Shown piece after piece: positions 48,314 to 63,140 of a stretch of 64,000 bases of DNA; position 1 is the stretch's first letter; each line of letters opens with the position of its first letter. Source of the stretch: Luminiphilus sp. (GTDB lineage: Bacteria; Pseudomonadota; Gammaproteobacteria; Pseudomonadales; Halieaceae). The position numbers and the translations under genes were made by a program. The stretch spans positions 1 to 64,000 of the forward strand of contig JAQWUD010000051.1 in assembly GCA_029242325.1 (NCBI GenBank), read 5' to 3'. The notes below the pieces were generated by a model. It made no database searches. It was not told where the DNA came from and saw only the letters and a program-made list of their open reading frames with translations.

Positions 48314-49363
48314 ATGACGCCCTATTCCGCTCTAGCACTGCAAATGGACTGCGTCGCAGTCAATGGCTTGAAAGATCGCGCTGCGGTCGAACAAGCCATG
48401 GCCAAAACACTTGAGAAAGTCGACAAGCTGATTGCCGGGAGCAAAGGTTTCATCAGCACTTTCAGCGGCGACAGCTTGAGGCTGGTGGTACTGCCGGAGT
48501 ATTTCCTGACCAGCTTTCCCATGGGCGAGACTATTGACCAATGGCGGGACAAGGCGTGCATCTCTTCAGATGGCCCCGAGTACCAGCGACTGGCAGCAAT
48601 CGCCCAACAGCGGAGTGTCTACTTGTCGGGTAATGCCTATGAACTCGACCCGCATTTCCCAGAGCTGTATTTTCAAACCAGCTTCATCATTAGCGATGAG
48701 GGCGAGATCATTCTGCGCTACCGCCGCCTGATCTCAATGTTTGCTGCCACGCCCCACGATGTGCTGTCCCGATATCTCGAGATATACGGAGAAGAGGGGT
48801 TATTCCCGGTTGCCGATACTCCACTTGGGCGACTGGCCTGCGTGGCTTCAGAAGAAATTCTCTATCCAGAAATAGCGCGCGCACTGGCAACGCGCGGAGC
48901 GGAAGTACTACTGCATTCGTCGAGTGAAGTGGGCAGCCCAAGGCCCACGCCCAAGAACATCGCCAAGTGTGCGCGGGCATACGAAAACATGTGTTACGTC
49001 ATTTCGAGCAATACCTCTGCGATTCACGAATCGCCGGTCCCGCAAAATTCAACGCAAGGTCACTCCCAAGTGGTGGACTATAAGGGTCAAGTCATGTCAG
49101 AGGCGTATACGGGCGAGTCTATGGTGGCACATGCGATCATCGATATTGAGCGACTCCGCGACGCGCGTTCCAAGCCGGCGATGACCAATCTGCTGGCGCG
49201 ACAAAGGCTTTCACTGTTTCAATCCACCTACGCGCAGACAGGTTTTTACCCAGAGGACACCCTCATCAGCGAGCACGGGACGACTCTGGCCGCAGATCGA
49301 TCACATTTTATGCAGCAGCAGGCGGAAGTCATCAAGCGGCTGAAAAAGAACGGGATAATCTGA
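48314..49363 (+). CDS. Nitrilase-superfamily protein with altered catalytic triad
   Basis: 349 residues of the carbon-nitrogen hydrolase fold, comparable in length to aliphatic amidases and nitrilases. Glu62 in 'VVLPEYF' is the expected base. The expected Lys (in Y-R-K) is Arg138 in 'LRYRRLIS', and the residue aligned with the catalytic Cys in C-x-(D/E)-x3-PE is Ser179 in 'CVASEEILYPE'; a Cys lies three residues earlier (Cys176). The E-K-C triad is therefore E-R-S. It may be non-catalytic, use other chemistry, or bind an amide ligand. It ends the symporter operon and converges with gntR. Confidence 0.8.
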   Translation: MTPYSALALQMDCVAVNGLKDRAAVEQAMAKTLEKVDKLIAGSKGFISTFSGDSLRLVVLPEYFLTSFPMGETIDQWRDKACISSDGPEYQRLAAIAQQRSVYLSGNAYELDPHFPELYFQTSFIISDEGEIILRYRRLISMFAATPHDVLSRYLEIYGEEGLFPVADTPLGRLACVASEEILYPEIARALATRGAEVLLHSSSEVGSPRPTPKNIAKCARAYENMCYVISSNTSAIHESPVPQNSTQGHSQVVDYKGQVMSEAYTGESMVAHAIIDIERLRDARSKPAMTNLLARQRLSLFQSTYAQTGFYPEDTLISEHGTTLAADRSHFMQQQAEVIKRLKKNGII

Positions 49364-49367
49364 ACGG

Positions 49368-50138
49368 TCAGTCGAGCGTGAGATCCATCGAGTACTGAAA
49401 GTGCTCCGGGTTATAGAGCACCTTCAGAAAATCCATAACCTGCTCGCTCTCTGTGCCCGTTTTCTTATAGGAACGTCGCGTCAGACTTAACAGAGGCGCT
49501 CCCTCCACTACCCCCAGCGCCTTGGCCACGGCGGAATCAGCGGATACCGCTGTCAGTGTCTGCGTCACATGGCTCACCTCAAGCCCCTGTTCTCGGAAAT
49601 AGCTGAGGCGGGGGGTGTTTTCAAAAATTGTGGTATCCGAGGGCATGTCCACGCCGGCCGTCCAACTGGTGTAGTGACCAAACTTCATGCCATCCCGTTC
49701 TCGCACCCTGAGCAGATGCAATGCGGCTTCTCCGTCCGACAATTTTAGATCCTCTCTTATCGCCTGCGGCGGAATACGCATACCGTAATCGAGGATCTCG
49801 GCAGAGGAATTTCGCGCCATGCTCTCGATTTCCTGCAGCATGCCCGTGAGCGGGGCATGAACCGGCCGGGGCGAATACTGGTAAATAATATGGGTGCCAC
49901 GGCCACGTCTTCGCTCGACCAACCCTTCCTTGGACAAATCATCCATGGCACGCTTGGCGGTGATTCGAGAGACCTTAAACAAATCCGCCAACTGCTCCTC
50001 GGCCGGCAAGCGCATCCCGTAAGCGAGCGTGCCATCGAGGATGCGGGCCTTCAGCAAAGCGAACAGCTGGTGGTAGAGCGGCGTAGGCGATTGCTTGGAC
50101 AGCTGCTCCACCATATGAGGGCTAAAGAATTCTTCCAT
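49368..50138 (-). CDS. GntR/HutC-family transcriptional regulator with UTRA domain
   Basis: 256 residues. The N-terminal winged helix (about 20-88) contains 'PLYHQLFALLKARILDGTLAYGMRLPAEEQLADLFKVSRITAKRAMDDLSKEGLVERRRGRGT'-type features: 'LPAEEQLADLF' and 'SRITAKRAMDDL' form the HTH and 'RRRGRGT' the wing. The UTRA ligand-binding domain follows from about 105, with 'LLRVRERDG' and 'ALGVVEGAPLLSLTRRSY'. Such proteins are mostly repressors released by a pathway metabolite. The palindrome directly upstream and its partial copies across the island suggest autoregulation and control of several operons. Confidence 0.92.
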   Translation of the reverse strand: MEEFFSPHMVEQLSKQSPTPLYHQLFALLKARILDGTLAYGMRLPAEEQLADLFKVSRITAKRAMDDLSKEGLVERRRGRGTHIIYQYSPRPVHAPLTGMLQEIESMARNSSAEILDYGMRIPPQAIREDLKLSDGEAALHLLRVRERDGMKFGHYTSWTAGVDMPSDTTIFENTPRLSYFREQGLEVSHVTQTLTAVSADSAVAKALGVVEGAPLLSLTRRSYKKTGTESEQVMDFLKVLYNPEHFQYSMDLTLD

Positions 50139-50169: not shown

Positions 50170-50199
50170 AACGCTTAATGATATAACAAAATAAGCGTT
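50170..50199. promoter_or_regulatory. Palindromic operator candidate upstream of gntR
   Basis: AACGCTTA and TAAGCGTT form 8-bp perfect arms around a 14-bp AT-rich centre containing ATGATATAACA. The left part, 50173-50188, is identical to 39562-39577. On the minus strand TGTTATATC could be the -10 of gntR, so binding would repress its own transcription. Confidence 0.7.
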
Positions 50200-50314: not shown

Positions 50315-50995
50315 ATGGGCGTTACCGAACTGGCTGTGCTGCGTTGGCTACACATCATCGCCATGGTGTATTGGCTTGGAGGGGAATGGGGCGTTTTCAA
50401 CACCTCTACCCATGTGATTAACCGTAAGCTCTCGATGGAAGAGCGGCGACGCCACATGCAGACCGCCTATCACATCGATATTCTCGCCCGCATTGGCATC
50501 ATCAGTTTGTTACCTCTCGGACTTCACATGGGGCACCTGTGGGGCGTGCAACCCTTCGGCGGAAACTTCCTGGTGGCGGTATGGTTATTGGCGATTGGCT
50601 GGTTGACGCTGTGTATTTCCGCTTATGTATACCGCGAAACTGATCGCGGCATGCAGCTCACGCTTTGGGACGAAAAAGTACGCTTCATCCTGATCCCGCT
50701 ATTGGTGATTTCGTCGATCAGTTCACTTCTTGGCTACGGACCCTTCAATGTGGGTCCGATGCAATACTGGTTCTCGATCAAAATCCTGCTGTACAGCGTG
50801 ACCCTGATGATTGGCCTGAAATTACGATTTATTATGCGCGAGTGGACGACCCTCTTTCGCGTATTGGCGGAGGGGCCCGATCAGGAAGCGGAAAATCAGT
50901 TGGAAAAAAGCCTCGCCCTGGGCAAGCGTCTGGCTTACTTCTATTGGGTAACCATTGCCTCGGTAGCCTTCTTCGGGGCAACCAAAGCGGTCTGA
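50315..50995 (+). CDS. Small polytopic membrane protein, WLGG(D/E) family, copy 1
   Basis: 226 residues from the ATG downstream of an extended -10 promoter, with AGAAGG just before it. About six helices. The first carries 'WLHIIAMVYWLGGEWGVF': a His, then Y-W-L-G-G-E-x-G-x-F. The second starts near 'ILARIGIISLLPLGLHMG'. Two further copies are encoded at 55.3 and 62.0 kb. The architecture recalls CopD/DUF2269-type proteins, but I cannot name the family. The intramembrane His and acidic residue could bind haem or metal. It is the only plus-strand gene between gntR and the deacetylase-like genes. Confidence 0.78.
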   Translation: MGVTELAVLRWLHIIAMVYWLGGEWGVFNTSTHVINRKLSMEERRRHMQTAYHIDILARIGIISLLPLGLHMGHLWGVQPFGGNFLVAVWLLAIGWLTLCISAYVYRETDRGMQLTLWDEKVRFILIPLLVISSISSLLGYGPFNVGPMQYWFSIKILLYSVTLMIGLKLRFIMREWTTLFRVLAEGPDQEAENQLEKSLALGKRLAYFYWVTIASVAFFGATKAV

Positions 50996-50997
50996 TA

Positions 50998-51918
50998 TTA
51001 CTGCACAGCAGCAGCGGCGATGATGTGGCTGGGTGGCGCGTGCCAGATAGCGCCCGCTCGCTCCACCAGTAAGGCATCGAGAATCTCTCGCACCGTGCGA
51101 ATGCGGTGCGGCTGACCCACCAACCATGGGTGGAAGTTGAGTGACAGCAGCCTACCGCCGTGCTCGCCACCCTCTTTGATCAGAAAATCTGCAGCATCCA
51201 CAACCTGCTGCACAAAACTGTCCTCACTGTGAAGGTTCTGAGTCAGTACAAAGACGTCGTCTAATTCCAAACACGAGGGGAGACAAGTCATGTTACCCGC
51301 GCGGGTTTTAAAGGCGTAGGGCAACTCATCGTTAACCCAATCACTTTGATAAGTGAAGCCATTGCTGACCAGTAGCTCCGGCGTGTTCTCGGTCTGAATC
51401 CGCCCGGGGCTCAACCATCCAGCCAAGGTTTGATCGGTAAACCCCTCCAGCGCAGCCCGGGTTTGACTAATCCAGTTCGACTCCACCTCCAGATCAACCT
51501 TGCCCGCATGCATGGCCAACATATTCCAGCCATGGCCGAGCCACTCGTAAGGTGTTCTTGCGAGGCGCTCGAGCAACTTGGGATAACGTTGTGCGAGTGC
51601 GCCAGAGATGGCTAGCGACGGCTGTGCCTCGCATTCAGCCATCACCTTCAGCAACCGATAAATCCCCACCCTATTGCCGTAGTCTCTGAGGGTATAGTGC
51701 CTGAGATCGGGGTAAGGCATCGTGAGTGCGCCCGGGGGAGCGACCTCCGGTTTCTCACCGGAAAGAGGAAAATGCTGCACTGCAATATTGATCCACAGCG
51801 CCAAAGGCTTGTCTTCTGGCCAGGCAACAGGAGCCCGGTCCTGTAGCATCGACCACTCGTAACGCTCGTGGTCCATCCCATAATGGCGGTGGGAGTAGCT
51901 CAGTAACTCATCACTCAT
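50998..51918 (-). CDS. Polysaccharide deacetylase/PuuE-like protein A
   Basis: 306 residues of the NodB-type (alpha/beta) barrel. 'RHYTLRDYGNRVGIYRLLKVMAE' is shared with its neighbour; 'YEWLGHGWNM' is the His motif and 'LAGWLSPGRIQTENTPELLVSNGFTYQSDW' the later barrel strands. The canonical DD metal pair is not visible ('INIAVQHFPLS'), as in PuuE allantoinase-like members. It probably acts on a C-N bond of a small cyclic amide or imide. Its start overlaps the stop of protein B (ATGA at 51915-51918). Substrate unknown. Confidence 0.82.
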   Translation of the reverse strand: MSDELLSYSHRHYGMDHERYEWSMLQDRAPVAWPEDKPLALWINIAVQHFPLSGEKPEVAPPGALTMPYPDLRHYTLRDYGNRVGIYRLLKVMAECEAQPSLAISGALAQRYPKLLERLARTPYEWLGHGWNMLAMHAGKVDLEVESNWISQTRAALEGFTDQTLAGWLSPGRIQTENTPELLVSNGFTYQSDWVNDELPYAFKTRAGNMTCLPSCLELDDVFVLTQNLHSEDSFVQQVVDAADFLIKEGGEHGGRLLSLNFHPWLVGQPHRIRTVREILDALLVERAGAIWHAPPSHIIAAAAVQ

Positions 51919-52838
51919 CCCGCCACCGCCCCATCAGCGCCGACCTGATCCTCCAGATAAGTGAGCGTATATTCGGCAATTTCCCTGCCCGTGGTCACCC
52001 ATACATCCGAATGGCCCGTGATGTACTCCAGCGCTTCTTCAAAAGCGCGCAGGCGATGCGGGCAGCTGACCTGATAATTGTGGGTGGGGATACACATCAC
52101 CGTGCCACTCTCGGCGCCCTCCGCATACAGCTGATCAAAGGCTCGGCGAATAATCTCGCCATACCGGCGCGGTTCCATCTTCTGCACAACATAGGCAATC
52201 GTGTCATTGAGTTCGAGCGAGTAGGGAATCGAGACGAAGGGTTTACCGCTTCGCGTTTTCACCCAGGTGGGTTGGTCATCGTGGAACAGATCACAGGTGT
52301 ACAGTCCTCCGGCCTCGGCGAACAAATCAATCGTATGATTTGAATGTGATAACGCAGGGGCAAGGTACCCCGCAGGACGCAGCCCCACCGCGCGCTCGAT
52401 CGTTGCCATGGCATCTTCGATCATCTCGCGCTCCTGTTGCTCGGTCAGACCGTAGGTATAGCGCGTGTTATAAATGCCGTGGCTAAAAAACTCCCAGTCA
52501 CGCTCGGCACAGAGCGCAATGATCTCGGGATGATGTTCGCACAATGCCGCGGAGAGGCTAATGGAGCCGCGCACGCCATACTTATCCAGCACGGCCATCT
52601 GACGCTGATGTCCCACCCTATTGCCGTAGTCACGAATACTGTATCCCGGAATGGCGGGATAAGGTTGTGGCCACGGTTTACGATAAGGATTGACAGGCGG
52701 ATTGAGCTCATAAAACTCGATATTGGGAGCAAGCCAAAAAGCCAGTCGAGCGCCGTTGGGCCACTCAATCTTGGGTCGATGCTCGTAAGGATTGTAATCG
52801 TAAAGTGCGAGCTCGGCGTGTTGTGTTGCAGAGGTCAT
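51915..52838 (-). CDS. Polysaccharide deacetylase/PuuE-like protein B
   Basis: 307 residues, paralogous to protein A: 'GYSIRDYGNRVGHQRQMAVLDKYG', 'WEFFSHGIYNTRY', 'PAGYLAPALSHSNHTIDLFAEAGGLYTCDLFHDDQPTWV' and 'CIPTHNYQVSCPHRLRAFEEAL'. The metal-type acidic position is 'NIEFYE'. More His residues suitable for catalysis remain than in A, so B may be the catalytic subunit and A a partner. Overlap with the isochorismatase-like gene stop (ATGA at 52835-52838) puts all three in one operon. Confidence 0.83.
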   Translation of the reverse strand: MTSATQHAELALYDYNPYEHRPKIEWPNGARLAFWLAPNIEFYELNPPVNPYRKPWPQPYPAIPGYSIRDYGNRVGHQRQMAVLDKYGVRGSISLSAALCEHHPEIIALCAERDWEFFSHGIYNTRYTYGLTEQQEREMIEDAMATIERAVGLRPAGYLAPALSHSNHTIDLFAEAGGLYTCDLFHDDQPTWVKTRSGKPFVSIPYSLELNDTIAYVVQKMEPRRYGEIIRRAFDQLYAEGAESGTVMCIPTHNYQVSCPHRLRAFEEALEYITGHSDVWVTTGREIAEYTLTYLEDQVGADGAVAG

Positions 52839-53506
52839 TCAGCACCCTGTTGAAACAGCCAGTCGAGGACATCCTGAGTCTCGAGTACATCAGCATATTT
52901 AATGGCGAGATCGGTCAGGTTCGCAAAATGATAGCTCTCATGTTTGTCCGCGACACATTCCTCCGGAACAATCGTACGATAACCGCGCGATAGCGAGTCA
53001 ACGGCTGTGGCGCGAATACAACCACTCGTCGAACCTCCCGTCACAACCAGCGTGTCGATCTTGTGCCATACGCAAAGGGATTGCAAAGCCGTCTCAAAAA
53101 ACGCTGAAGGCATTTTCTTGCAGTAAATCACATCGCGCTTTTGATCAATGTCGAGACGCTCGTCAAACTCAGCGCGCTCTGATCCAAATTTAATATTTTG
53201 CAGAGAGTCAGGAGTATCGGTCCGCGTACCCCATATGCCACAGTCTTCCCCCGACTCCATAAAAGCAACGGAGGTCCACACAACCGGCCAGCCCAAAGAC
53301 CGGAATGCAGTGGCCAGCCGGTTTACCCATTCGAGCTGATTGGGATCTGTCTCGTAAGCCGTTTTGAACAGATCCGTTCGGGTATACGCCTTCTGCAAAT
53401 CCACATTCACAAGAATGGCTTTCTTGCCAAAGCCAAATCGGGCGCGGCTGGGATTGTCTTTTATCTGTTGGTATATCTGCCGCGCAGTTAGATCACTGGT
53501 TTCCAT
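52835..53506 (-). CDS. Isochorismatase-family cysteine hydrolase
   Basis: About 223 residues from the ATG with AGGA seven bases upstream; the longer frame begins in the operator region. The triad is Asp36 ('LVNVDLQKAY'), Lys131 ('CKKMPSAFF') and Cys163 ('GGSTSGCIRATAVD'), with a cis-peptide region 'TGGST'. This is the N-carbamoylsarcosine/ureidoacrylate amidohydrolase and nicotinamidase group that releases ammonia, often with CO2, from amides or carbamates. It heads the operon with two PuuE-like proteins, consistent with sequential C-N hydrolysis. Confidence 0.88.
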   Translation of the reverse strand: METSDLTARQIYQQIKDNPSRARFGFGKKAILVNVDLQKAYTRTDLFKTAYETDPNQLEWVNRLATAFRSLGWPVVWTSVAFMESGEDCGIWGTRTDTPDSLQNIKFGSERAEFDERLDIDQKRDVIYCKKMPSAFFETALQSLCVWHKIDTLVVTGGSTSGCIRATAVDSLSRGYRTIVPEECVADKHESYHFANLTDLAIKYADVLETQDVLDWLFQQGAE

Positions 53507-53539
53507 TTTTATTCCTGTTTTGCTGGAGCCCGAGCCCTC

Positions 53540-53562
53540 ATGATATAAAAACATATCATTAA
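53540..53562. promoter_or_regulatory. Dyad ATGATAT-N6-ATATCAT, candidate GntR site
   Basis: ATGATAT and ATATCAT are perfect 7-bp arms around AAAAAC, in the 109-bp divergent gap between the isochorismatase operon and the plus-strand operon. The 9-mer ATGATATAA is shared with the 39562 and 50173 sites, and ATATCATTAA with the complement of both. Confidence 0.6.
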
Positions 53563-53615
53563 TACATAGCCAGATCTGGCCTTCTGCATAGGGCCAATAT
53601 CAGCCGGGAGGCACA

Positions 53616-54344
53616 ATGGGTCACAGGGTCATTCAAGGCAGAATCGATTACACCAGTCGGAAACCTGAGCGCTTGGGACAGATCCGCGGACGCGAAATGT
53701 TCACGCTCACCTGCCAACCCGATGGCACCGACGTGCTGCTTGCGCACTGCGAGATTGATGATACACCCAAGGTGACGCGAGATGTCTGTCTCGCACTTCG
53801 CCATGTGGATTCAAGCCCAATTGACTGTTCCGTCAGGCTCTCGGTTGGAGGCCGATTTGAGGGCTCCGGGTGGATGCGCTTTGCCAAGGGTTACGCGGAA
53901 TGCGAGACCTTTAACGCCAGAGACGGTCGTATCACCCAAGAATTGGAGACCGATGAGCCGGTAGGCTGGCTCCAAAGCCACCCTATCGTGGGTGATGCCC
54001 TGCTCATGCGGCTTTACCCGCTCGAGCAGGGTCCCGGCGTGCATTCACTGAAGAACGTGTTCCTGACGTCACCCGATCACCGTGGAGCAACCGGCCCGTT
54101 CTTTTTTGTGACGAGTTTCGACCTCGTTTACGTCGGAGAAGAAGAGATCCAGGTCGCAGCCGGGACATTTCCCGCCAGACACTTTCAGGTCACTGGTACA
54201 GCCGGTAATTTACCGGAAGAACATCCTCCCTACGACGTTTGGTGCACTGCGGACGACGACTATCTACTTCTCAAGGCAAGTGCAGAAGGCTACATGCAAA
54301 CCCACTATGAACTGACTGATATCTCGATCGAGCAAACGCCATGA
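53616..54344 (+). CDS. Conserved-looking protein of unknown function
   Basis: 242 residues, no signal peptide or membrane segment. Predominantly beta-type sequence with alternating polar and hydrophobic residues, and aromatic-rich strands such as 'GPFFFVTSFDLVYVGEEEIQVAAGTFPARHFQV' in the last third, which recalls DUF3108-type beta-barrels ('AGTFPARHF', 'YDVWCTADDDYLLLKA'). First gene of the plus-strand operon that continues with a VOC-like protein, a membrane protein, an MFS transporter and an SDR. I do not recognise a catalytic motif. A lipid- or ligand-binding barrel is possible. Confidence 0.65.
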   Translation: MGHRVIQGRIDYTSRKPERLGQIRGREMFTLTCQPDGTDVLLAHCEIDDTPKVTRDVCLALRHVDSSPIDCSVRLSVGGRFEGSGWMRFAKGYAECETFNARDGRITQELETDEPVGWLQSHPIVGDALLMRLYPLEQGPGVHSLKNVFLTSPDHRGATGPFFFVTSFDLVYVGEEEIQVAAGTFPARHFQVTGTAGNLPEEHPPYDVWCTADDDYLLLKASAEGYMQTHYELTDISIEQTP

Positions 54345-54369
54345 ACGCTCTGGGGGAGAAGGCTAAAAC

Positions 54370-55212
54370 ATGATCGAGAATATGACCTTACGTGTTCCCA
54401 GGCTGGGCGATGCAGTAGCGGCCTATGAGGCGTTGGGTTACGGGACAGCAGCCACTAATGTGACTCAGGCCGCGGCGATCGCACTATCGGACCCTGCTCT
54501 GGAAGGGTGTGCGCATCACTGTATTCTCATGTCTGCCGAGCCCCTACAAACGCTGACCCTGGTTGAGTGGACCGGCGCGCTCCCCACGCCCTTTGCCACG
54601 CCCGGATGGTCTGCCATGGAGGTGTTGGTCAAGGACCTCGATGCGCTTCACAAGGTGCTACCCGCCGGCTTTACCGTGTTGAACCCTCCTGCGGCCCTAT
54701 CATTCTCTGATCAAATTCGTGCCATGCAGGTGGCTGGACCCGCCGCTGAACTGATCTACTTCACAGAGGTGGCAGGAGAAGTACCGGGCTTTGAACTGCC
54801 CTCCGCGACGCATCAGGTGAATCAGTGCTTCGTCATGATCAATGCAGTGACCCGCATCGAACGATCAGTTGCGTTCTATGCTCACTTGCTGAATTGCGAG
54901 CCCCCGACACCCATGCCAGCGCGGGTATCCATTTTGTCGCGGACCAATGGGCTCGACGAGGATTATCGGCACGACATCGCGCCCATCGAGTTGGGGCCCG
55001 GTCAGCTCTTTGAGCTCGATCAATGGGTGGAGCGCCCCATTAGCCCTCCGGAGAGCCTGCCTTGCGGTTGGCATTCACTCTCTCTGCGGAGAGAGACACC
55101 TCCCCCTGTGGGTATTCCTGCAGAGCGACAGCAAGTAGATGACTCTACTGAGTGCTTCCACATATCCTGTCCTGACCATGAGCACATTGAATGGCTGTGC
55201 CCGGCAACATGA
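54370..55212 (+). CDS. VOC-like two-part protein, paralogue of the 42.9-kb gene
   Basis: 280 residues. The first module starts 'MIENMTLRVPRLGDAVAAYEALGYG', where Asn takes the place of the usual metal-binding His. 'GWSAMEVLVKD', 'AMQVAGPAAELIYFT', 'NQCFVMINAVTRIERSVAFYAHLL' and 'FELDQW' match blocks of the protein encoded at 42939. No signal peptide, unlike that paralogue. The two-module fold is typical of VOC proteins, but the ligand set looks degenerate. Located between an unknown protein and a WLGGD membrane protein in one operon. Function unknown. Confidence 0.7.
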   Translation: MIENMTLRVPRLGDAVAAYEALGYGTAATNVTQAAAIALSDPALEGCAHHCILMSAEPLQTLTLVEWTGALPTPFATPGWSAMEVLVKDLDALHKVLPAGFTVLNPPAALSFSDQIRAMQVAGPAAELIYFTEVAGEVPGFELPSATHQVNQCFVMINAVTRIERSVAFYAHLLNCEPPTPMPARVSILSRTNGLDEDYRHDIAPIELGPGQLFELDQWVERPISPPESLPCGWHSLSLRRETPPPVGIPAERQQVDDSTECFHISCPDHEHIEWLCPAT

Positions 55213-55250
55213 CGCGAAACACCGTCACCAGCCCCCACTGAGAGAGACCT

Positions 55251-55901
55251 ATGTACAACGCGATGCTTTACTTACACGTACTGTCGCTTGTTTACTGGCT
55301 GGGCGGGGACCTTGGAACCTTTCTTTCTAGCAGATATGTGCTGCGCACAGATCTTGGCGTTGAGTCGCGTCAAACAGCCTTTAACATACTGATGGAGTGC
55401 GACATGGGCCCTCGCCTGGCGATGCCGATTATTCTGGGATCCGGCTGTCATTTGGCGATGTTGTATTGGCCGAATCTGCTACCAGACTACACCGCGCTGA
55501 CAGGGTGGCTGGTCGTCGCAATCTGGGTGGGTTTGGTGGCAGCAATTCATAGCCCGCTTGGGCATCGCACGCCCTCTCTGGCCCAGTGGGATCTCTGCCT
55601 CCGATTCGTCATCGTTGTCGGCCTGTTGGCAGTGGCCATGGCGGGCCTGAACGTTGGCTTACCCGCCTGGATCGCTCTCAAGCTTGGCATCTTCGCCTTA
55701 TTGGTTGCCAGTGGCATCGCGGTGCGCTTTGCACTCAAACCCTTTGCTATCGCGTACGCCACGATGCTCAGAGAAGGGGCCAGTGACGCGGGCAACGACA
55801 CCATGGTCAATCACATGCGCGTGGTCCGTCGGTATGTTTGGGTAATCTGGATAGGGCTTTTCGTGAACGCCGCGCTCGGCCTTCGCGTCATCATCGTTTG
55901 A
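55251..55901 (+). CDS. Small polytopic membrane protein, WLGG(D/E) family, copy 2
   Basis: 216 residues, about six helices. The first helix carries 'LYLHVLSLVYWLGGDLGTFLSS', followed by 'RTDLGVESRQTAFNILMECDMGPRLAMPIILGSGCHLAML'. The 62.0-kb copy has the same order: H, W-x-G-x-D-x-G-x-F, R-T-x-L, RQT, PR, SGC. It overlaps the MFS gene by TTGA and follows the VOC gene closely. Conserved His, Asp and a Cys in the second helix may form a cofactor or metal site. Unnamed family. Confidence 0.78.
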   Translation: MYNAMLYLHVLSLVYWLGGDLGTFLSSRYVLRTDLGVESRQTAFNILMECDMGPRLAMPIILGSGCHLAMLYWPNLLPDYTALTGWLVVAIWVGLVAAIHSPLGHRTPSLAQWDLCLRFVIVVGLLAVAMAGLNVGLPAWIALKLGIFALLVASGIAVRFALKPFAIAYATMLREGASDAGNDTMVNHMRVVRRYVWVIWIGLFVNAALGLRVIIV

Positions 55902-57097
55902 CTCACGCGCAAGGGTCCCCGCCCACCCTGTCGATCTCCCGCTGGTTGCTCGCGGCCATCAGCAGCCTTTCGCCATTCGGTATATCAATCATGGTGCCGC
56001 TGGTGCCCGCGCTCAGCTTGTCGCTCGGGCACAACGTCAGTGAACTGCAATATCTTTTTTCGGCATATGTGATCGGCCTAGCCGTGAGCCAACCCATCTT
56101 CGGTATCGTCGCTGACCGAATTGGCCGGCGCCCCATCTTGCTGACCGGGTTCACGGTATTCATCGTAGCAAGCGTACTCTTGGTCTTTACCGAAACGCTG
56201 AACGCGATGATCTTTCTGCGCTTTCTGCAGGCAGTTGGCGTCGGTGTGGGCACGGTGGTTGCACGGGGTATTATCAGGGATCATTTACCGCCGGCTGAGG
56301 CACTGAAGACTTTTGCCATTCTGACCGCCGCAATGGGCTTTACGCCCGTGATCGCACCGGTTGCGGGTGGGTTGCTCGCCACATTTTTTGGAATGAAATC
56401 GGTCTTCATCGTGCTGGCATTACTAGGTTCGGGCATGCTGGCACTGTGCTTTCGCTCAATCCCGAGCGACCCACCACGGGAACACGCTGGCGAAAAAGGC
56501 GCGTCGTTGAAAGGCTATCTGTCTCTTCTGAGATCCATCGGATTTTGGGGCCATGCAGGCGCGTTTGGCTTTCTTCAAGGCATGGTATTCACCTTGCTCG
56601 CTACGGGGAGCGTCCTGTTCCAAGATGAGTTTGGCCTCTCCATGCAAAGTTTCAGTTTCGTGTGGGGGAGCTCTGCCTTGGTATATGTCTCGGGATCATT
56701 TTTGCTGAGTCATACGTCTTATCTGAGCACCAAGAAATGGCAAAACCGTGCGGTGATGGGCATGCTCATTGTGTCACTGTCTGCCCCCGCATTGATCCTG
56801 GCACAAGGACTCACTCTGGTAGCCGTAACCTTACCGTTATTCGCTTCAATGCTGTTGTCAGGCATCCTCACACCCACCACGATGTATGGCGCGGTCAATG
56901 CGGTACCGCGCTGGAGTGGAAGTGCTGCTGGACTTTCAAGTTCAATCGGGATGACCATGGCGGGAATTTTTTCGTGGCTTGGCGCATCACTTTATGAGCA
57001 TCATCCAGCACTGATCATGGTGTGTTTTGGCGGAGCAGGGGTCGGCTTCGTCTGCTGTTGGCTATTGGCTCATCGGGGCCAGCAGTCATCGGGTTGA
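55898..57097 (+). CDS. MFS transporter, Bcr/CflA-like
   Basis: 399 residues if translation begins at the TTG that overlaps the preceding stop (TTGA at 55898-55901); an ATG at 55838 would add a charged, unlikely N-terminus inside the previous gene. Twelve helices. MFS motif A is 'GIVADRIGRRPILLTGF' and motif C-like 'TAAMGFTPVIAPVAGGLL'; the latter is typical of Bcr/CflA drug:H+ antiporters. It may export a pathway intermediate or import the substrate. Translational coupling with the WLGGD membrane protein is notable. Confidence 0.85.
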   Translation: MTHAQGSPPTLSISRWLLAAISSLSPFGISIMVPLVPALSLSLGHNVSELQYLFSAYVIGLAVSQPIFGIVADRIGRRPILLTGFTVFIVASVLLVFTETLNAMIFLRFLQAVGVGVGTVVARGIIRDHLPPAEALKTFAILTAAMGFTPVIAPVAGGLLATFFGMKSVFIVLALLGSGMLALCFRSIPSDPPREHAGEKGASLKGYLSLLRSIGFWGHAGAFGFLQGMVFTLLATGSVLFQDEFGLSMQSFSFVWGSSALVYVSGSFLLSHTSYLSTKKWQNRAVMGMLIVSLSAPALILAQGLTLVAVTLPLFASMLLSGILTPTTMYGAVNAVPRWSGSAAGLSSSIGMTMAGIFSWLGASLYEHHPALIMVCFGGAGVGFVCCWLLAHRGQQSSG

Positions 57098-57186
57098 GCC
57101 CTCGGCAACCAGCAGCGCCTCTCCATTGACGGCAGCCCACGATTCATGGGCGGGAACGGATACTTTAACAAGCGAAGGAGATCATT

Positions 57187-57999
57187 ATGACGGGTGCAAA
57201 GGTAGCAGTGTGCACGGGCTCGGGCAGGCATGGCGGGTTGGGTGAGGCCATCCTGAGCCGTTTGGGGAAAGAGGGCTACCGCCTCGTCGTGACGGATATT
57301 GACGGCGAGGGCGCCTCGCAGCTGGCGAATACCAGCGAGATGGAGTCCGTTGCCAAAGCATTGAGCGCCGAGGGATATGAAGTGCTGTGTCATCCCTGCG
57401 ATGTACGCTCACCCGATTCAGTAACCGCACTTTTTGATCACATCATCCAACAGTTTGGTCGCGTTGATGTGTTGGTAAACAATGCGGGCATCGGGTTTGT
57501 CATGAAACATTCCCGCGAAGTATCGCCCCAAGAGTGGGCACTGGTCATCGATGTGACCTTGAGTGGCGTATTTTTCTGCACCCAAACAGCGGCTAAATAT
57601 ATGGAAAAATCGGGCCATGGGGGGCGAATTATCAATATCGCCAGTCAAGCCGCCAAATCAGGTTTTCCGCATATGGCGCCCTACTGTGCCGCCAAGCACG
57701 GTGTTATTGGTCTAACGCGAACCGCCGCAATCGACTATGGTGCCGCGGGCATCACCGTGAATGCGGTGTGCCCGAATCATGTGACCACCGGATTGGGTAG
57801 CGCGCAAAATGCGTATTTTTCTGCCTTCAAAGGCATGACCGAGGAAGCGTACCTTGAAGAAATGGCCGCGCGTATTCCTATGCAGCGGATCGGTCAGGCC
57901 GGTGACACCGCCGCGATGTGCGCTTTCTTAGCCTCCGATGATGCCAGCTTCATTACCGGAGAGGCGATCAACGTCAGTGGCGGTGAGGAGATGCACTAG
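57187..57999 (+). CDS. Short-chain dehydrogenase/reductase
   Basis: 270 residues. The cofactor loop is 'CTGSGRHGGLGEAI' (an unusually long Gly-rich turn), Asp37 follows the second strand and suggests NAD(H), NNAG is at 98-101, and the catalytic Ser153, Tyr166 and Lys170 are present ('APYCAAK'). 'FITGEAINVSGGEEMH' closes the fold. AAGGAG lies upstream. It oxidises a secondary alcohol or reduces a ketone. Last gene of the operon; a terminator hairpin lies downstream. Substrate unknown. Confidence 0.9.
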   Translation: MTGAKVAVCTGSGRHGGLGEAILSRLGKEGYRLVVTDIDGEGASQLANTSEMESVAKALSAEGYEVLCHPCDVRSPDSVTALFDHIIQQFGRVDVLVNNAGIGFVMKHSREVSPQEWALVIDVTLSGVFFCTQTAAKYMEKSGHGGRIINIASQAAKSGFPHMAPYCAAKHGVIGLTRTAAIDYGAAGITVNAVCPNHVTTGLGSAQNAYFSAFKGMTEEAYLEEMAARIPMQRIGQAGDTAAMCAFLASDDASFITGEAINVSGGEEMH

Positions 58000-58122
58000 G
58001 CCTCTGTTTACACCTGCAATGTCGCACTATAAGGCGCGGCCAGCGCTGTCGATGAAGCCGAGATCCTGCACTCCAGAACACGCTTTCTCTCGCCCGTTTA
58101 TGCAACCCAAATGATGCAAAGC

Positions 58123-58160
58123 AAAAAACCCCGTTCGAGTCACACTCGCCGGGGTTTCTT
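58123..58160. terminator. Bidirectional intrinsic terminator
   Basis: AAACCCCG ... CGGGGTTT stem with inner CGAGT/ACTCG pairing, flanked by A6 on the left and a T-rich tail on the right. It lies between the 3' ends of the SDR gene and the second TonB receptor gene and can serve both. Confidence 0.85.
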
Positions 58161-58163
58161 TAG

Positions 58164-58182
58164 TGACCACAGTCTGTGGTCA
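58164..58182. repeat. Inverted repeat TGACCACA-GTC-TGTGGTCA
   Basis: Perfect 8-bp arms with a 3-base loop immediately beyond the terminator, 12 bp from the receptor stop. It is probably part of the same transcription end for the minus-strand receptor; it has no T-tract of its own. Confidence 0.6.
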
Positions 58183-58193
58183 GGTCAAGCGAA

Positions 58194-60350
58194 TCAACCG
58201 CCGAAGCGATACTTCAGCGTCGCCAGATACGTCATGGGAAGGTTGTAATAACGCGTAAACAGGAAGGACTGGGTATAGGTTTTATCGCCACAGTTCTTGC
58301 ATTCCAAATTCAGCTCCCAACGTGAATCCGCCGCTGCCAGCTTGATCCCCGCGTTGAGGAGAGTCACTGACTCGTTATAGCCACGGTTGATCGTTCCCGG
58401 GTATTGCGAGCCTAAGTAACGCACCATGACGTTAGGTGTAAGGGTTAGCGAGCCAATAGTGAAATCAGCTGAAGTCCCAACGGTGTAAGTTTGATGTGGG
58501 CTTCGCTTGGGTTCAGCGACATTACAGTTCGCGTCGTAAGCAGCTAGGTCTGCATTGGGAGTGACACAGCCACCGGGTAAACTCTGATATTCGGCGTTCT
58601 GCCAACCCAGCGCGGCAAAGATCTGCCAGTTATCGGTGGGCAGCGCCGTAATCTCAGCTTCAATCCCGGGCACCTCTAAACCACCGGCATTGGTGGTAAG
58701 AAACGACCCCTCAGGGGTTGCCGCTGTGGTTTGAAGATCCTCAAGGTCAGAGTAAAACGCGGTGACGTTGGTCCTCAATCGTCCCTCCATCCAGTCAGCG
58801 CGCATACCCAATTCATACGACCAAATCGTCTCTGGCGCAAACGCTTGTAGTTCATCGGAGCTAGATGCACGCGCATTCCAACCCCCTGACTTAAAGCCAT
58901 TGGTAGCCGATGCATACATCATCATGTTTTCAGTGAATTTGTGCGCGTAAGCAATGCGTGGCGTGATTTCCTGCTCGCTCTGCTCCAGCGGAATACCAGC
59001 GGCCACCATCCCAGCAGAGTTCACCGTCCCCTGAAAATCCACTGTCTTTTCTTCGTCAGTGTAACGAGCACCCAATGTCAGCGTGCCATTCTCACCGACT
59101 TGGATATCAGCTTGAGCATAGATCGCAAAACTCTCTGTGGTATTGGTCAGGATACGATCTGCTAGCGTCAGAAATGCTGTGGAGGGTGGTACAGGAACAC
59201 CCACCGCAGCAAGGTCAAGGTAATCAACGAAATCGACTTCGTTGTCCTCATCCATGTAGTACACACCAGTCTGTAAAAAACCCCGGCCGTCCATAATATC
59301 GCCCGACCACTTCAACTCCGCCGAGAACATATCGTGCTCGCCCTCATTATCGATAATGAAAAAGTCCGGAATGAAATCGAGGCTGAAGGGAAAGTTCAGC
59401 AGGAAATCCTGCTCAATAGAGCGTGCGCCCAGTATCAGATTCGCGGTGCCGCCCATCGCATCCCACGCCAGATTAGACGTGATATTCAAGGTCTCGACCT
59501 CGTTACCGTAATCTGACATGCCGCCGCCCATTGGCAGGCCGTCGCCCAGCACAGAGAGAGAATAACGATCGTCGCCATCTAAAAAGCCATGAATGTTGGA
59601 CACTTCTGATTTACCGCCATCTATCGCGATATCCCAGGTCATGGAATCAGAGATGAGCCAGCGCAAGGCTGCCCTGACGCCCGTTAAATCTGCCTCGTTA
59701 TAGTCCTTGCCGTCGGTTCGGTTCTCAAGATAGCCATCGTCATCCACGTAATAGGCAGAAAATTTAGTCAGCACAGTGTCACTAAGGGGAAGGTCGATAC
59801 TACCTCGGAGCAACGTCTTTCCGAATCGACCGGCACCTGCCTCAACGTAACCTTGCATCGTGTCGGAGGGCTTCTTCATCACGACACTGATTGCGCCACC
59901 CGTGGTGTTACGGCCGTACAGCGTGCCCTGCGGACCTCGCAATACCTCAATACGCTCCACATCAAACAACGCCACATTGTTGACGTTCTGTCGTGTGATG
60001 TAGACGTCATCGACGTACGTGCCTACGGGTGGATCAAAAGTCGAAATGGATTCGTCATTACCTTGCGCTCGCAGGTAGTACATATTGGCGGTACCCAACC
60101 CGGTGTTGTTGCCGCCAAACATATTGGGAACGACATTAATCAAATCCAGCGTGTCATCAATTTGTAATTTGTCGATCATATCTTCGTTATAGGCACTCAC
60201 TGCAATGGGGACGTCCTGCACAGACGCCTCGCGGCGCTCGGCAGTGACCAATACTTCCTCTAATTGGGCTGAGGCTGCTGTTGATAACGTTGCCGAGACA
60301 GCTGCCGAGAGCACGGCCGGCAAATAGACTTTGTGACTGATCATTTTCAT
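58194..60350 (-). CDS. TonB-dependent outer-membrane receptor
   Basis: 718 residues. Signal peptide at about 1-28 (ends 'STAASAQ'), then 'LEEVLVTAERREASVQDVPIAVSA', plug motifs 'YVDDVYITRQNV', 'IEVLRGPQGTLYGRNTTGGAISV', and a beta-barrel ending 'ATLKYRFGG'. The 'AERREASVQDVPIAV' subtype is common in sphingomonads and marine gammaproteobacteria, often beside terpenoid, sterol or aromatic degradation genes. The start region opens into a 167-bp divergent promoter shared with the methyltransferase operon, where part of the GntR site motif occurs. Ligand unknown; probably the substrate of the island. Confidence 0.92.
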   Translation of the reverse strand: MKMISHKVYLPAVLSAAVSATLSTAASAQLEEVLVTAERREASVQDVPIAVSAYNEDMIDKLQIDDTLDLINVVPNMFGGNNTGLGTANMYYLRAQGNDESISTFDPPVGTYVDDVYITRQNVNNVALFDVERIEVLRGPQGTLYGRNTTGGAISVVMKKPSDTMQGYVEAGAGRFGKTLLRGSIDLPLSDTVLTKFSAYYVDDDGYLENRTDGKDYNEADLTGVRAALRWLISDSMTWDIAIDGGKSEVSNIHGFLDGDDRYSLSVLGDGLPMGGGMSDYGNEVETLNITSNLAWDAMGGTANLILGARSIEQDFLLNFPFSLDFIPDFFIIDNEGEHDMFSAELKWSGDIMDGRGFLQTGVYYMDEDNEVDFVDYLDLAAVGVPVPPSTAFLTLADRILTNTTESFAIYAQADIQVGENGTLTLGARYTDEEKTVDFQGTVNSAGMVAAGIPLEQSEQEITPRIAYAHKFTENMMMYASATNGFKSGGWNARASSSDELQAFAPETIWSYELGMRADWMEGRLRTNVTAFYSDLEDLQTTAATPEGSFLTTNAGGLEVPGIEAEITALPTDNWQIFAALGWQNAEYQSLPGGCVTPNADLAAYDANCNVAEPKRSPHQTYTVGTSADFTIGSLTLTPNVMVRYLGSQYPGTINRGYNESVTLLNAGIKLAAADSRWELNLECKNCGDKTYTQSFLFTRYYNLPMTYLATLKYRFGG

Positions 60351-60418
60351 CGAATTGATTCCCTCTAAACCTTATCTTTATGGCGCCCAAAGAAAGTGCC
60401 TACGTATTGACAGATCCG

Positions 60419-60428
60419 TATATCATTA
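60419..60428. promoter_or_regulatory. Partial GntR-type site in the receptor/methyltransferase promoter
   Basis: TATATCATTA is identical to a 10-base part of the complement of the 39562 and 50173 sites. It lies midway in the divergent gap. A 10-base AT-rich match can occur by chance, so this is weaker than the 16-base pair. Confidence 0.35.
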
Positions 60429-60517
60429 TAGGTATCGATCAATCAAGGAAGCTCGCGCGGCGACAACCTCTGTCGCCCTCGCGGACACAGGAAAACTGAT
60501 CAGAGAGGAGGCTAATA

Positions 60518-61696
60518 ATGGCTGGACTGCAACACAGTTTGGCACTCAGTAAAAATTTGGATCAGCGAGCGCGCGAGCGATTCACTTCCTCGATGCGATC
60601 ATGGGTATTGACCGACCTCGCAGGGCAAATGCAGACTGATTACGACACCGCGAGTAAGTCGGCGGGTGTCACGCACGACACGGGCGAAGCGGTACACCAG
60701 TTCCTGAAAGATCGCGGGCTCTTTAAATGGTATTCCAGTTTACGGTGCGCAACGCAGGAGCTGGTATGGCAATCGGTGCTGCGCGCTATCGAGACTGATC
60801 CGACCTCGGTGGCGAGCATTCAGTGCGGGTCTCCCGCTGCGCAGGGTGGTTCACTCTCGTTAGATCCCGCTATTCGCCTGCCAGACTATGCAGACATCAT
60901 GGACGTACATTTGATGCCGGGTAACTACCAAGGATCCCATAGCCCAGGCGCCGAGGCTGGCGTGGTGTATGACAATGGGTTGGATGTATTTTCGTTCGGC
61001 GTCATGGGCGAGAATCTGGATGACATTGGTCATTCCATGGCGAATTTCACACGCTTGAGGTGGCCGGATCTCGATCCGGAGTTAATTGTGGATGTGGGGT
61101 GCACCATTGGCCACAACACAGTGCCCTGGAAGCAAGCCTTCCCGTCAGCCGAAGTGCATGGCCTGGATGCAGCGTCCCCCTGTTTGCAATACGGCCACGC
61201 GCGTGCAGAGGCGATGGGCGTGGCGATTCAATTCAAACAAGCGCTATGCGACGCGCTGCCTTATGACAACAACAGCGTGGATGTAGTGTTCTCGTCCATG
61301 TTCCTACACGAGTTGCCGACTGCACAAATCAAAGCTTTCTTTGATGAAGCCCATCGCGTTCTCAAGCCGGGCGGCGTGCTGATCAATATGGAGCTGCCAC
61401 CGAATGATGTGCTGGAAGCTTACGACGCATTTTATCTAGATTGGGACTGCTTCTATAACAACGAGCCGTTCTATAAAGGCTTTCGCGACCTGAGCTACCC
61501 CAAGCTCTGCACGGATGCTGGGTTTGGCGATACAGACTTTTTTCAGGCCACAATGCCGCGCTACACCTATGTCAGCGAAGCCGAGTTTGCTCAGGCATCG
61601 GGCGCCGATGCCACATTTGACGCAGACACGGGCCGCCTCTCCGACACCATCACCTGGTACGCCTTTGGCGCCCAAAAAAGTGGCGCCACGACATGA
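60518..61696 (+). CDS. Class I SAM-dependent methyltransferase
   Basis: 392 residues from an ATG with GAGGAGG six bases upstream. The first 170 residues form a separate N-terminal region. The SAM domain starts with motif I 'ELIVDVGCTIGHNT' near residue 190, an Asp in 'VHGLDAASPCL', motif 'ALCDALPYDNNSVDVVFSSMFLHELP' and 'AHRVLKPGGVLINME'. It methylates a small molecule or lipid (UbiE-like core). The N-terminal extension may dimerise or bind substrate. The next gene overlaps by ATGA. Divergent from the TonB receptor, so it probably belongs to the same pathway. Confidence 0.85.
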   Translation: MAGLQHSLALSKNLDQRARERFTSSMRSWVLTDLAGQMQTDYDTASKSAGVTHDTGEAVHQFLKDRGLFKWYSSLRCATQELVWQSVLRAIETDPTSVASIQCGSPAAQGGSLSLDPAIRLPDYADIMDVHLMPGNYQGSHSPGAEAGVVYDNGLDVFSFGVMGENLDDIGHSMANFTRLRWPDLDPELIVDVGCTIGHNTVPWKQAFPSAEVHGLDAASPCLQYGHARAEAMGVAIQFKQALCDALPYDNNSVDVVFSSMFLHELPTAQIKAFFDEAHRVLKPGGVLINMELPPNDVLEAYDAFYLDWDCFYNNEPFYKGFRDLSYPKLCTDAGFGDTDFFQATMPRYTYVSEAEFAQASGADATFDADTGRLSDTITWYAFGAQKSGATT

Positions 61697-61977
61697 GCGA
61701 TAAAAAGGCGGTGAAGGCGGGCCGGCCGGCCTTTTTTTCTGATCCCGAGATTGATCGCCTACTGGCCATTATTGTCCGGCTGATGACCGAGCACTCTGTA
61801 TTAAGTGAGCGCGTCAAATCACTGGAGACGCTCCTGATTGAATCGGGCACGATTACTCGAGAAGCTCTAGACGCATTCGAAGCCGACGAGGAGCAGGAGG
61901 CAGAGTGGGCGCAGGCACGGTTTCAGCTCATCAAAGATGTGTTGGAATCCGGGGCGAACATCACAAAACAGGAATAA
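61693..61977 (+). CDS. Small helical protein of unknown function
   Basis: 94 residues starting in an ATGA overlap with the methyltransferase stop. A basic N-terminus ('KKAVKAGRPAFFSDPEID') is followed by heptad-rich helices ('RLLAIIVRLMTEHSVLSERVKSLETLL') likely to form a coiled coil, and an acidic tail. The translational coupling suggests a small partner subunit of the methyltransferase or a regulator. No family recognised. Confidence 0.65.
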   Translation: MSDKKAVKAGRPAFFSDPEIDRLLAIIVRLMTEHSVLSERVKSLETLLIESGTITREALDAFEADEEQEAEWAQARFQLIKDVLESGANITKQE

Positions 61978-61989
61978 AGAGGGCACCGC

Positions 61990-62637
61990 ATGGAAGGTTT
62001 ATGGCTCTACGTTCATATTCTGCTGCTGGTTTTTTGGGTCGGCACCGATGTGGGGGTTTTTATTGCCGCAAAGTGGTCAGAACGTACCGAGCTCAGCATT
62101 GAAACACGCCAAACCGTTTTACAGCTCGGCATGGTGCTGGACCGGTTACCTCGCTCCGCACTCACATTGATTATCCCCTCCGGCTGCCAGTTGGCGGTGG
62201 TGAGTGGCTGGTTGGACTTATCGGGAGCGGCTCTCGGCGGCCTGTGGGCAATCGCGGCCATTTGGCTGGCTATTCTCTGGCGCGGTTTTCTCTCGACTGA
62301 TCCCAAGACTCAGGAACAGTCTGCGAAAATCAATTGGGTGCTGAATCTTGTTGGCGCCTTGATCGTGAGCAGCACTGGTATATATCTGTTCACCCAAAAC
62401 ACTGTGCCCGACTGGCTGGCGCTCAAGATCCTCGCCGTTGGTGCCATTTTTTGTGCAGGAGTGTTACTGGATTTACTGTTCAAGCCGGCTGTAGATCTTT
62501 TTATCGCGCTGGGTTCAACGCCTGATAACGCGGAGCTCAACGGTGCTTATTCGCGAGCGCTGTCGCCCGTCTACATTGCCGTGCTCGCGATTTACGCTTT
62601 TGCGCTCATTGCCGCGGCGCTGGGGATCTTCAAATAA
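61990..62637 (+). CDS. Small polytopic membrane protein, WLGG(D/E) family, copy 3
   Basis: 215 residues, about six helices. 'LYVHILLLVFWVGTDVGVFIAA' in helix 1 and 'RTELSIETRQTVLQLGMVLDRLPRSALTLIIPSGCQLAVV' in the next segment align closely with the 55.3-kb copy. Here the motif is W-V-G-T-D. 'WLALKILAVGAIFCAGVLLD' matches the fifth helix of copy 2 ('WIALKLGIFALLVASG'). It overlaps the next start by one base (TAATG). Conserved His and Asp in helix 1 suggest a shared cofactor. Unnamed family. Confidence 0.78.
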   Translation: MEGLWLYVHILLLVFWVGTDVGVFIAAKWSERTELSIETRQTVLQLGMVLDRLPRSALTLIIPSGCQLAVVSGWLDLSGAALGGLWAIAAIWLAILWRGFLSTDPKTQEQSAKINWVLNLVGALIVSSTGIYLFTQNTVPDWLALKILAVGAIFCAGVLLDLLFKPAVDLFIALGSTPDNAELNGAYSRALSPVYIAVLAIYAFALIAAALGIFK

Positions 62638-63140
62638 TGCGATCACCCCGTACCAGCAAAGGCAAAAAGATCCACCTATACCGTCTGCTGTTCTTGTGTG
62701 GCATCCTGACCACTTCGTTCTCATGGGCTGATTTCGAAACCGAAATTGCGGCCGAGGGCGGCAAGTGGGCAAACTATTACGAGCAGGCAGATCTGGAGGG
62801 CCTCATGACCCTCTATGTAGACGACGCCATTGTGGCGCTCCATGGGCAGCCCGCACTGTTCGGGATCGATGCGATCAGGGAATACTTTTCCACCCGCATC
62901 GGCCAAGCGGAGTCAATTTTCGAACTGGACTATGAGCTGCGGGAAACCCACGGCGATATTGCCTACATCATTAGCAAGTACTGGCTAAAAGCGACCGACA
63001 AGACAACCGGTAAAGTATATCTGGACGCCGGCCGGTCGCTGCTGGTCTATAAGCGGCATGACGGCCAGTGGAAGATCGCCGCTGACATTGATCAGGCCAC
63101 CCCCGACGTCACTTGGCCGGCACCCTCAGGCCTCAATTGA
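62637..63140 (+). CDS. SnoaL/DUF4440-like NTF2-fold protein, exported
   Basis: 167 residues. A basic N-terminus plus 'LYRLLFLCGILTTSFSWA' is a probable signal peptide. The NTF2-like domain shows 'WANYYEQADLEGLMTLYVDDAIVALHGQPALFGIDAIREYFSTRI' and ends 'SLLVYKRHDGQWKIAADIDQA', the DUF4440/SnoaL pattern. These act as small isomerases, hydrolases or ligand pockets. Translationally coupled to the WLGGD membrane protein, so the pair may work at the inner membrane or periplasm. Confidence 0.78.
   Translation: MRSPRTSKGKKIHLYRLLFLCGILTTSFSWADFETEIAAEGGKWANYYEQADLEGLMTLYVDDAIVALHGQPALFGIDAIREYFSTRIGQAESIFELDYELRETHGDIAYIISKYWLKATDKTTGKVYLDAGRSLLVYKRHDGQWKIAADIDQATPDVTWPAPSGLN

Follow-up and report, generated by a model that had tools for sequence, protein, structure and literature searches.

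Three paralogous membrane proteins and their family

The DNA analysed here, hereafter the window, is a stretch of 64,000 nucleotides (64 kb) from Luminiphilus sp. (Halieaceae; contig JAQWUD010000051.1). It carries an island of putative catabolic genes in which three genes code for membrane proteins of one unnamed family. They were named MEM1, MEM2 and MEM3 after the open reading frames (ORFs) at 50315, 55251 and 61990, respectively (their neighbours are listed with the other island genes below).

50315..50995, + strand: MEM1, 226 amino acids (aa), six-helix membrane protein of the main clade (slow-evolving, widespread)
55251..55901, + strand: MEM2, 216 aa, paralogue in the h53616-VOC-MEM2-MFS-SDR operon
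61990..62637, + strand: MEM3, 215 aa, paralogue in the MT-h61693-MEM3-SnoaL operon

The ORF list, which gives an upstream TTG start for MEM1, agreed with the places, lengths and common + strand reported in a preliminary description of the window. The observation of three paralogues made there is real and more than chance: MEM3, searched against its own genome (2.76 Mb in 51 contigs), retrieved MEM2 (E 3.8e-19, 32%) and MEM1 (E 1.5e-11, 27%), and nothing further at E≤0.001 on the 51 contigs. All three display the helix-1 motif H-x5-(Y/F)-W-(L/V)-G-x-(D/E)-x-G-x-F, the spacing from His to (Y/F)W being exactly five residues, and RTxL, RQT, PR and SGC were present in MEM2 and MEM3, as previously described. 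Each copy also lies in a different operon. MEM1 is divergent from a GntR gene across a 176-bp gap, MEM2 stands between a VOC-like and an MFS gene, and the stop codon of MEM3 overlaps the start codon of a SnoaL/NTF2-like gene (TAATG at 62635-62639).

A family alignment of 68 members, 45 of them of MEM1 type, was examined for fixed residues (numbered as in MEM1). H13, W20, G22, R44, G69, W96 and K156 were invariant in 68/68 members and position 24 was always Glu or Asp, so that the helix-1 His, on which the preliminary description had relied, is kept in all aligned homologues. AlphaFold2 models of MEM1 (pLDDT 95.0) and MEM3 (pLDDT 96.5, helix 2 listed in two pieces) both displayed six helices. 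With helix bounds taken from MEM1, the side that holds loops 1-2, 3-4 and 5-6 was richer in Lys and Arg in 68/68 members; the positive-inside rule then predicts an N-out/C-out topology for the family. By helix count, not coordinates, H13 and K156 would lie about 8-12 Å from the outer face and G69 and H71 near it, with R59, W96 and R123 halfway across the membrane and E24, D55 and R171 deeper, towards the inside.

A tree of 72 rows (arbitrary root, some long branches, bootstrap not settled) placed MEM1, MEM2 and MEM3 in separate supported groups (100/97, 100/99 and 100/99), each with rows from other genomes. Neighbours were counted within 400 bp for distinct copies, assigned to clades by best match to the tree rows; contig ends often cut the loci. 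GntR and PuuEa genes each occurred on the opposite strand in 22/80 MEM1-clade copies, and h61693 on the same strand in 6/80, five of these being Novosphingobium loci. The MEM2 clade was accompanied by h53616 (same strand 6/16, opposite strand 5/16) and the MEM3 clade by SnoaL on the same strand (3/4) and by MT and h61693 (2/4). The three copies appear to be old and long separated because they form three well-supported clades with different neighbours, which supports the earlier view of them as three paralogues.

A fourth clade, which has no member in the window, was sister to MEM1 (97/87). Its same-strand neighbours were h53616 (3/7) and the FAD oxidase (3/7), and loci L232 and L240 displayed the gene order h53616, MEM, FAD oxidase. 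Members of this clade in L229, L232, L238 and L240 stood beside h53616 and/or a GlcD-like FAD oxidase. The sister group of MEM2 had an FAD oxidase on the opposite strand in 2/7 copies. Assignment of the FAD-oxidase operons to the MEM2 clade was considered and proved wrong, since best match to the tree rows puts them in the fourth clade.

The family is an accessory trait. It was recorded in 8/369 genomes of an even draw at class level (own genome included; one was a weak partial match) and in 11/398 of an even draw at phylum level, of which 4 were clear (own included) and 7 weak only. Within Halieaceae, 40/140 genomes matched. The genus contributed 21 matching genomes, counting the own one: three matches were recorded in 13 of them, four in one, two in three and one in four, counts that include contig-end fragments in many incomplete genomes. 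A scan of a species-level genome collection yielded at least 591 pattern stretches, at least 452 of them coding for relatives, from which the best 80 were taken, a sample that leans to MEM1 kin. Their carriers were Halieaceae, Porticoccaceae, Alteromonadaceae, Shewanella, Novosphingobium, Burkholderiales and others. Both the family and the island genes were seen in alpha-, beta- and gammaproteobacteria.

A common operator-like motif and the gene content of the island

The three MEM operons share an operator-like half site with a fourth promoter of the island. These sites and the presumed owner of the operator are:

49368..50138, - strand: GntR/UTRA regulator, divergent from MEM1 (Pfam GntR 2e-19, UTRA 2e-18)
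39565..39573, + strand: half site in the divergent promoter oxidoreductase / CoA-transferase
50176..50184, + strand: half site TAATGATAT in the GntR / MEM1 promoter
53553..53561, - strand: half site in the divergent region between the isochorismatase/PuuE operon and the h53616-VOC-MEM2-MFS-SDR operon
60420..60428, - strand: half site in the divergent promoter TonB receptor / MT-h61693-MEM3-SnoaL operon

The half site TAATGATAT occurred four times in the window, always in divergent promoter regions of the island and once for each MEM operon; 0.20 occurrences were expected and four were reached in 0/100 shuffles. It was picked after the promoters had been viewed, and checks in other genomes therefore matter. 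A search of 107 related loci (1.5 Mb) gave 67 occurrences, and 52 of these fell within -350/+20 of homologues of window genes; for 60 letter-shuffled 9-mers the mean in the same loci was 2.1 (max 9) near homologues and 8.0 (max 24) overall. These loci are not independent, many being close kin and some contigs being in twice (e.g. L042/L257 and L070/L242). Sites in them lay upstream of GntR, MEM1, MEM2-type / FAD oxidase, MEM3, LeuC, CoA-transferase / HMG-CoA lyase, isochorismatase / h53616 and TonB receptor genes, and the fullest form, the palindrome TAATGATATATCATTA, was found in L242. The GntR / MEM1 and oxidoreductase / CoA-transferase promoter regions also have the 16-mer GCTTAATGATATAACA in common. 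In the whole own genome TAATGATATA occurred four times, three of them in the island; the fourth lies on contig C40 inside an ORF resembling an SDR by eye.

The earlier proposal of one regulon for the three MEM operons is supported, short of proof, by a motif that is common to four island promoters and recurs in the matching promoters of related genomes. An exact site is lacking in the window's VOC / SSS promoter, from which the LeuCD genes are served as well, and this counts against the proposal. The GntR protein is the presumed binder because its gene adjoins the most constant site. The start codon listed for the isochorismatase gene, probably placed too early, falls in the 53553 site; the orthologue in L049 suggests a start about 16 codons downstream.

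Around these promoters the following genes were considered:

927..2710, + strand: flavin amine oxidase, then a cytochrome c ORF; the pair recurs in related loci
37567..38508, - strand: HMG-CoA-lyase-like
39603..40820, + strand: class III CoA-transferase
40821..42883, - strand: LeuD-like and LeuC-like hydratase subunits
46245..47807, + strand: FAD-linked oxidase (GlcD-like); Pfam FAD_binding_4, NCBIfam GlcD 2.8e-27, below cut-off
48314..49363, + strand: carbon-nitrogen hydrolase (amidase/nitrilase family)
50998..51918, - strand: PuuE-like hydrolase a (PuuEa); NCBIfam PuuE 7.1e-25, below cut-off
51915..52838, - strand: PuuE-like hydrolase b (PuuEb); NCBIfam PuuE 6.3e-36, below cut-off; nearest in PDB 3cl6, PuuE allantoinase (2.5e-30)
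52835..53554, - strand: isochorismatase-type amidohydrolase (Pfam 7.1e-29); nearest in PDB unnamed isochorismatase-family hydrolases, then N-carbamoylsarcosine amidohydrolases
53616..54344, + strand: h53616, weak DUF3108 match (0.012); adjoins MEM2-clade and fourth-clade members
54370..55212, + strand: called VOC-like in the preliminary description; no VOC model over cut-off (Pfam, NCBIfam)
55838..57097, + strand: MFS transporter, true start uncertain
57187..57999, + strand: SDR dehydrogenase
60518..61696, + strand: methyltransferase (MT)
61693..61977, + strand: h61693, small protein between MT and MEM3
62637..63140, + strand: SnoaL/NTF2-like protein

Homologues counted within up to 8 kb of flank around 80 MEM1-type genes were those of the CoA-transferase (38), FAD oxidase (37), GntR (35), isochorismatase (32), PuuEa (31), carbon-nitrogen hydrolase (30), LeuC (29), PuuEb (29), DUF1330 (24), LeuD (23), h53616 (22) and the gene at 54370 (19). 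The expected co-occurrence with a PuuE-like gene turned out to be strong: among the 140 Halieaceae genomes, 29 had both MEM and a PuuEb orthologue (≥74% identity), 11 MEM only, one PuuEb only and 99 neither (Fisher p 7e-20, not corrected for kinship).

Relatives of PuuE include cyclic imide hydrolases and those of LeuCD include maleate-type hydratases. With its PuuE-like enzymes, amidases, LeuCD-like pair, CoA-transferase and HMG-CoA-lyase-like protein, the island reads as a putative ring-opening and CoA-cleavage pathway. Judged by enzyme types, the order would be ring opening, amide hydrolysis, hydration, CoA transfer and C-C cleavage, with a cyclic imide or a ureide as possible substrate. 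Among open-licence papers no literature was found on the island, on plasmid pJE1 (see below), on a bacterial cyclic imide hydrolase with maleimide or on the enzyme set of the island.

Several observations were made on the islands of other genomes. A hydantoinase/oxoprolinase A gene stood near MEM1 in 8 loci (e.g. L050:14241-16673; one member was scanned), consistent with a ureide or a lactam as substrate. The sphingomonad plasmids pJE1 (L248, 1-38042) and pTomTYG65b (L249, 270000-319631), one predicted mobilizable and one conjugative, carry a similar island with two LeuCD pairs, an HMG-CoA lyase, an isocitrate-lyase/PEP-mutase-type gene and a TonB receptor. Outside the window, homologues of the flavin amine oxidase (loci L032, L056, L070, L097, L251 and L253) were followed by a small CxxCH ORF in 8/9 cases, or 6/7 after removal of duplicates, and several copies displayed an RR-containing N-terminus.

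Relationship to known membrane protein families

No Pfam or NCBIfam model names MEM1-3, and scans of the three proteins returned noise only, in line with the earlier view of an unnamed family. To this view a rider must be added, as the family probably forms a remote branch, itself unnamed, of the DUF2269/CopD/DUF4149/HemJ group, with matches that stay below cut-offs. When 69 members were scanned singly (E≤10), DUF2269 was matched by 33/69 (best 2.2e-5), DUF2207_C by 21/69 (0.034), CopD by 15/69 (0.0011), UPF0093/HemJ by 14/69 (0.068) and DUF4149 by 6/69 (0.0045). MEM1 itself scored 9.5 bits against DUF2269 (PF10027; Pfam cut-off 28 bits), MEM2 and MEM3 did not match it at E≤1, and 20 divergent members scanned apart did not match it at E≤0.1. 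Profiles were also compared with hhalign, whose probabilities are given for all rows and for divergent rows only, with the reversed self as control (32 and 9). DUF2269 reached 87 and 90 and the cross-hit set from the genome search 83 and 47; MFS and SSS profiles stayed below 1.

These cross-hits derive from the seven weakly matching genomes of the phylum-level draw (E 1e-5 to 5e-4). Of the matches read, in six of the seven genomes (two were identical), one was HemJ (UPF0093 6e-42) and four others, of 157-170 aa, weakly matched UPF0093, DUF4149 or CopD. The CopD model itself matches HemJ genes in these genomes. A helix-1 His with a small residue (Gly or Ala) nine positions on, which is H13/G22 in 68/68 MEM members, was also visible on inspection of the HemJ and CopD sequences and of most DUF2269 sequences read, and we take this spacing as a candidate group-defining feature. 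Helices 3-4 might be an insert between core helices of HemJ type, with alignments pointing both ways: those of HemJ and CopD leave a gap at helices 3-4, those of DUF2269 and the cross-hits cover helices 1-4 without one.

DUF2269, the best profile-profile match (mainly over helices 1-4), shares with MEM the helix-1 His with Gly nine on. It differs by a model of 150 positions, by what we take to be four helices and by the Trp of H-x6-W, which is mostly Leu, Phe or Val in the proteins read; to our knowledge it has no known function. HemJ (UPF0093, PF03653), a protoporphyrinogen oxidase with presumably four helices, resembles MEM in its helix-1 H-x6-W and in a W-x3-K segment further on, but is about 140 aa long, gave a profile match under the reversed control and is near-universal in the order (53/56 genomes), whereas MEM is accessory. 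With a best E-value of 0.068 against PF03653, MEM proteins were not found to be HemJ members. By the title of a paper on it, HemJ is a b-type haem protein, and it likely uses plastoquinone. Besides one HemJ gene, the own genome has another match to UPF0093 that stays under threshold (31.2 bits against a cut-off of 34.2; C48:77524-77838 noted). CopD (PF05425) and DUF4149 (PF13664) are linked to MEM by their weak matches and by the cross-hits; where scores are shown they lie below cut-off, and CopD is named for copper resistance, copper genes not having been searched for in the island.

PuuD, the membrane urate oxidase (Urate_ox_N, PF06181), shares with MEM a helix-1 H-x6-W-x-G and the company of PuuE-type enzymes. 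Its membrane domain is reported to be N-out/C-out like MEM, with a distant similarity to DUF2269 (E 0.15; PMC4562309), and PuuD has eight helices plus a cytochrome c. No CxxCH was present in MEM1, MEM2 or MEM3, and comparison of the MEM profile with three PuuD N-domains was null (hhalign probability 1.7 and 0.4). MEM as a PuuD that lacks its cytochrome was thus rejected at the level of sequence for these three PuuD proteins.

The family profile matched no sequence in PDB, and Foldseek against PDB with the MEM1 and MEM3 models gave 0 at E≤0.001, the rows being mostly helical bundles and G-protein-coupled receptor or rhodopsin chains. One HemJ and one CopD protein had no sequence match in PDB either, so that empty fold searches say little.

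Possible role of the MEM proteins

The preliminary interpretation is partly supported, its haem or metal binding and electron transfer standing as proposals. We tentatively favour the possibility that MEM1-3 are membrane redox proteins of an inducible pathway for nitrogen-ring compounds, with haem as the likely cofactor. Points counted for it are the conservation of H13, K156 and E/D24, the six-helix models, the topology, the profile links to the DUF2269/CopD/DUF4149/HemJ group, the haem and likely plastoquinone of HemJ, the FAD-oxidase genes beside members of the fourth clade and of the MEM2 sister group, the shared operator and the pair of amine oxidase and cytochrome c. In such a scheme one GntR regulator would co-regulate the three copies, and the island would open cyclic imides or ureides for LeuCD-type hydration, CoA transfer and a CoA-lyase step. 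Each MEM copy would serve one oxidation, taking electrons at its charged inner half either straight from the substrate or from an island flavoenzyme (e.g. the GlcD-like FAD oxidase); these would cross a cofactor held by H13 near the outer face, most likely haem b, and end on cytochrome c or quinone. What the data show is homology, conservation, six helices, a topology derived from charge, a signal of co-regulation and the gene neighbours; cofactor, electron path, partners and substrate are proposed.

Several results weigh against this scheme. Of the fixed His and acidic residues in the membrane noted in the preliminary description, H13 and E/D24 stood, but the second His, H71, was fixed in the main clade only (45/45 rows, against 7/23 other rows; His in MEM2, Gln in MEM3), which rules out bis-His haem as a family-wide trait. 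No FAD oxidase was found within 400 bp in the three window clades, and that of the window is separated from MEM1 by some 2.5 kb in which the amidase and GntR genes lie. Placement of the FAD-oxidase operons in the fourth clade rather than with MEM2 slightly lowered our confidence in a redox role. As to the profile links, no Pfam family was over cut-off for MEM members where a score was shown, unrelated membrane families scored as well or better (ASTER 1.3e-4 in the 69-member scan), and the 20 divergent members gave one DUF4149 match (0.0045) and otherwise noise. With hhalign, CopD (44 and 22) was little above the reversed control and HemJ (22 and 3) below it. A 2020 review in the Journal of Biological Chemistry gives the cofactors of HemJ as not known.

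A role as transporters or channels, each carrying a metal or a compound of the pathway through the inner membrane in the way that CopD relatives may carry copper, would agree with six helices that hold conserved Arg, Asp and Lys, with the weak matches to CopD and to the nickel transporter NicO (2/69, best 0.0062) and with the MFS gene adjoining MEM2. We regard it as rather unlikely, as the island already has MFS and TonB transporters and an SSS-type gene (by eye), and the recurring neighbours of MEM are mostly enzymes and a regulator. MEM1-3 matched no transporter model over cut-off (Pfam, NCBIfam) and are not recognised transporters, in keeping with the preliminary description. Oxidation by the MEM proteins themselves of a ring compound later opened by PuuE-like enzymes, in the manner of PuuD, is also unlikely. 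The frequent PuuEa gene opposite MEM1, the genome-wide co-occurrence with PuuEb and the common topology with its weak DUF2269 link speak for it; against these stand the null comparison with PuuD N-domains, the missing cytochrome c fusion and the 49/80 loci that had no PuuEa homologue in the available stretch, contig ends often cutting.

The changing company of the copies (GntR and PuuEa for MEM1, h53616 for MEM2, SnoaL and MT-h61693 for MEM3), together with h61693 next to some MEM1 copies, could also point to non-redox membrane anchors or assembly factors for soluble island enzymes. This we doubt too, since the invariant intramembrane set of His, Lys and acidic residues exceeds what an anchor needs.

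Should the redox proposal hold with haem as cofactor, MEM would add to the membrane oxidases a new family close to HemJ, itself a protein of poorly known chemistry. A bolder extension, improbable at present, makes MEM a further haem-bearing membrane oxidase of an island that dismantles ring-cleaved tetrapyrroles: the PuuE-like enzymes would open substituted maleimides derived from chlorophyll or bilins, the LeuCD-like pair would hydrate these in maleate form, and cleavage would act on the CoA esters. The idea draws on enzyme types and general chemistry; if it were true, the family would mark a marine microbial sink for pigment nitrogen and carbon. Under any reading, an unnamed family travels with a coherent, apparently undescribed catabolic pathway and a readable operator. 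What was a vague 'hypothetical membrane protein' becomes open to experiment through this operator, the patchy occurrence of the island and the invariant His.

Two minor observations concern genes outside the MEM operons. On contig C45 of the own genome, two further h53616 paralogues (38900-39625 and 46434-47117) bracket a GlcD-like FAD oxidase in a stretch with no MEM gene, perhaps a sister pathway. At the left end of the window, a DUF1838 gene (3-905, - strand, 8.7e-60) belongs to a group that spans 18 stretches, the window included.

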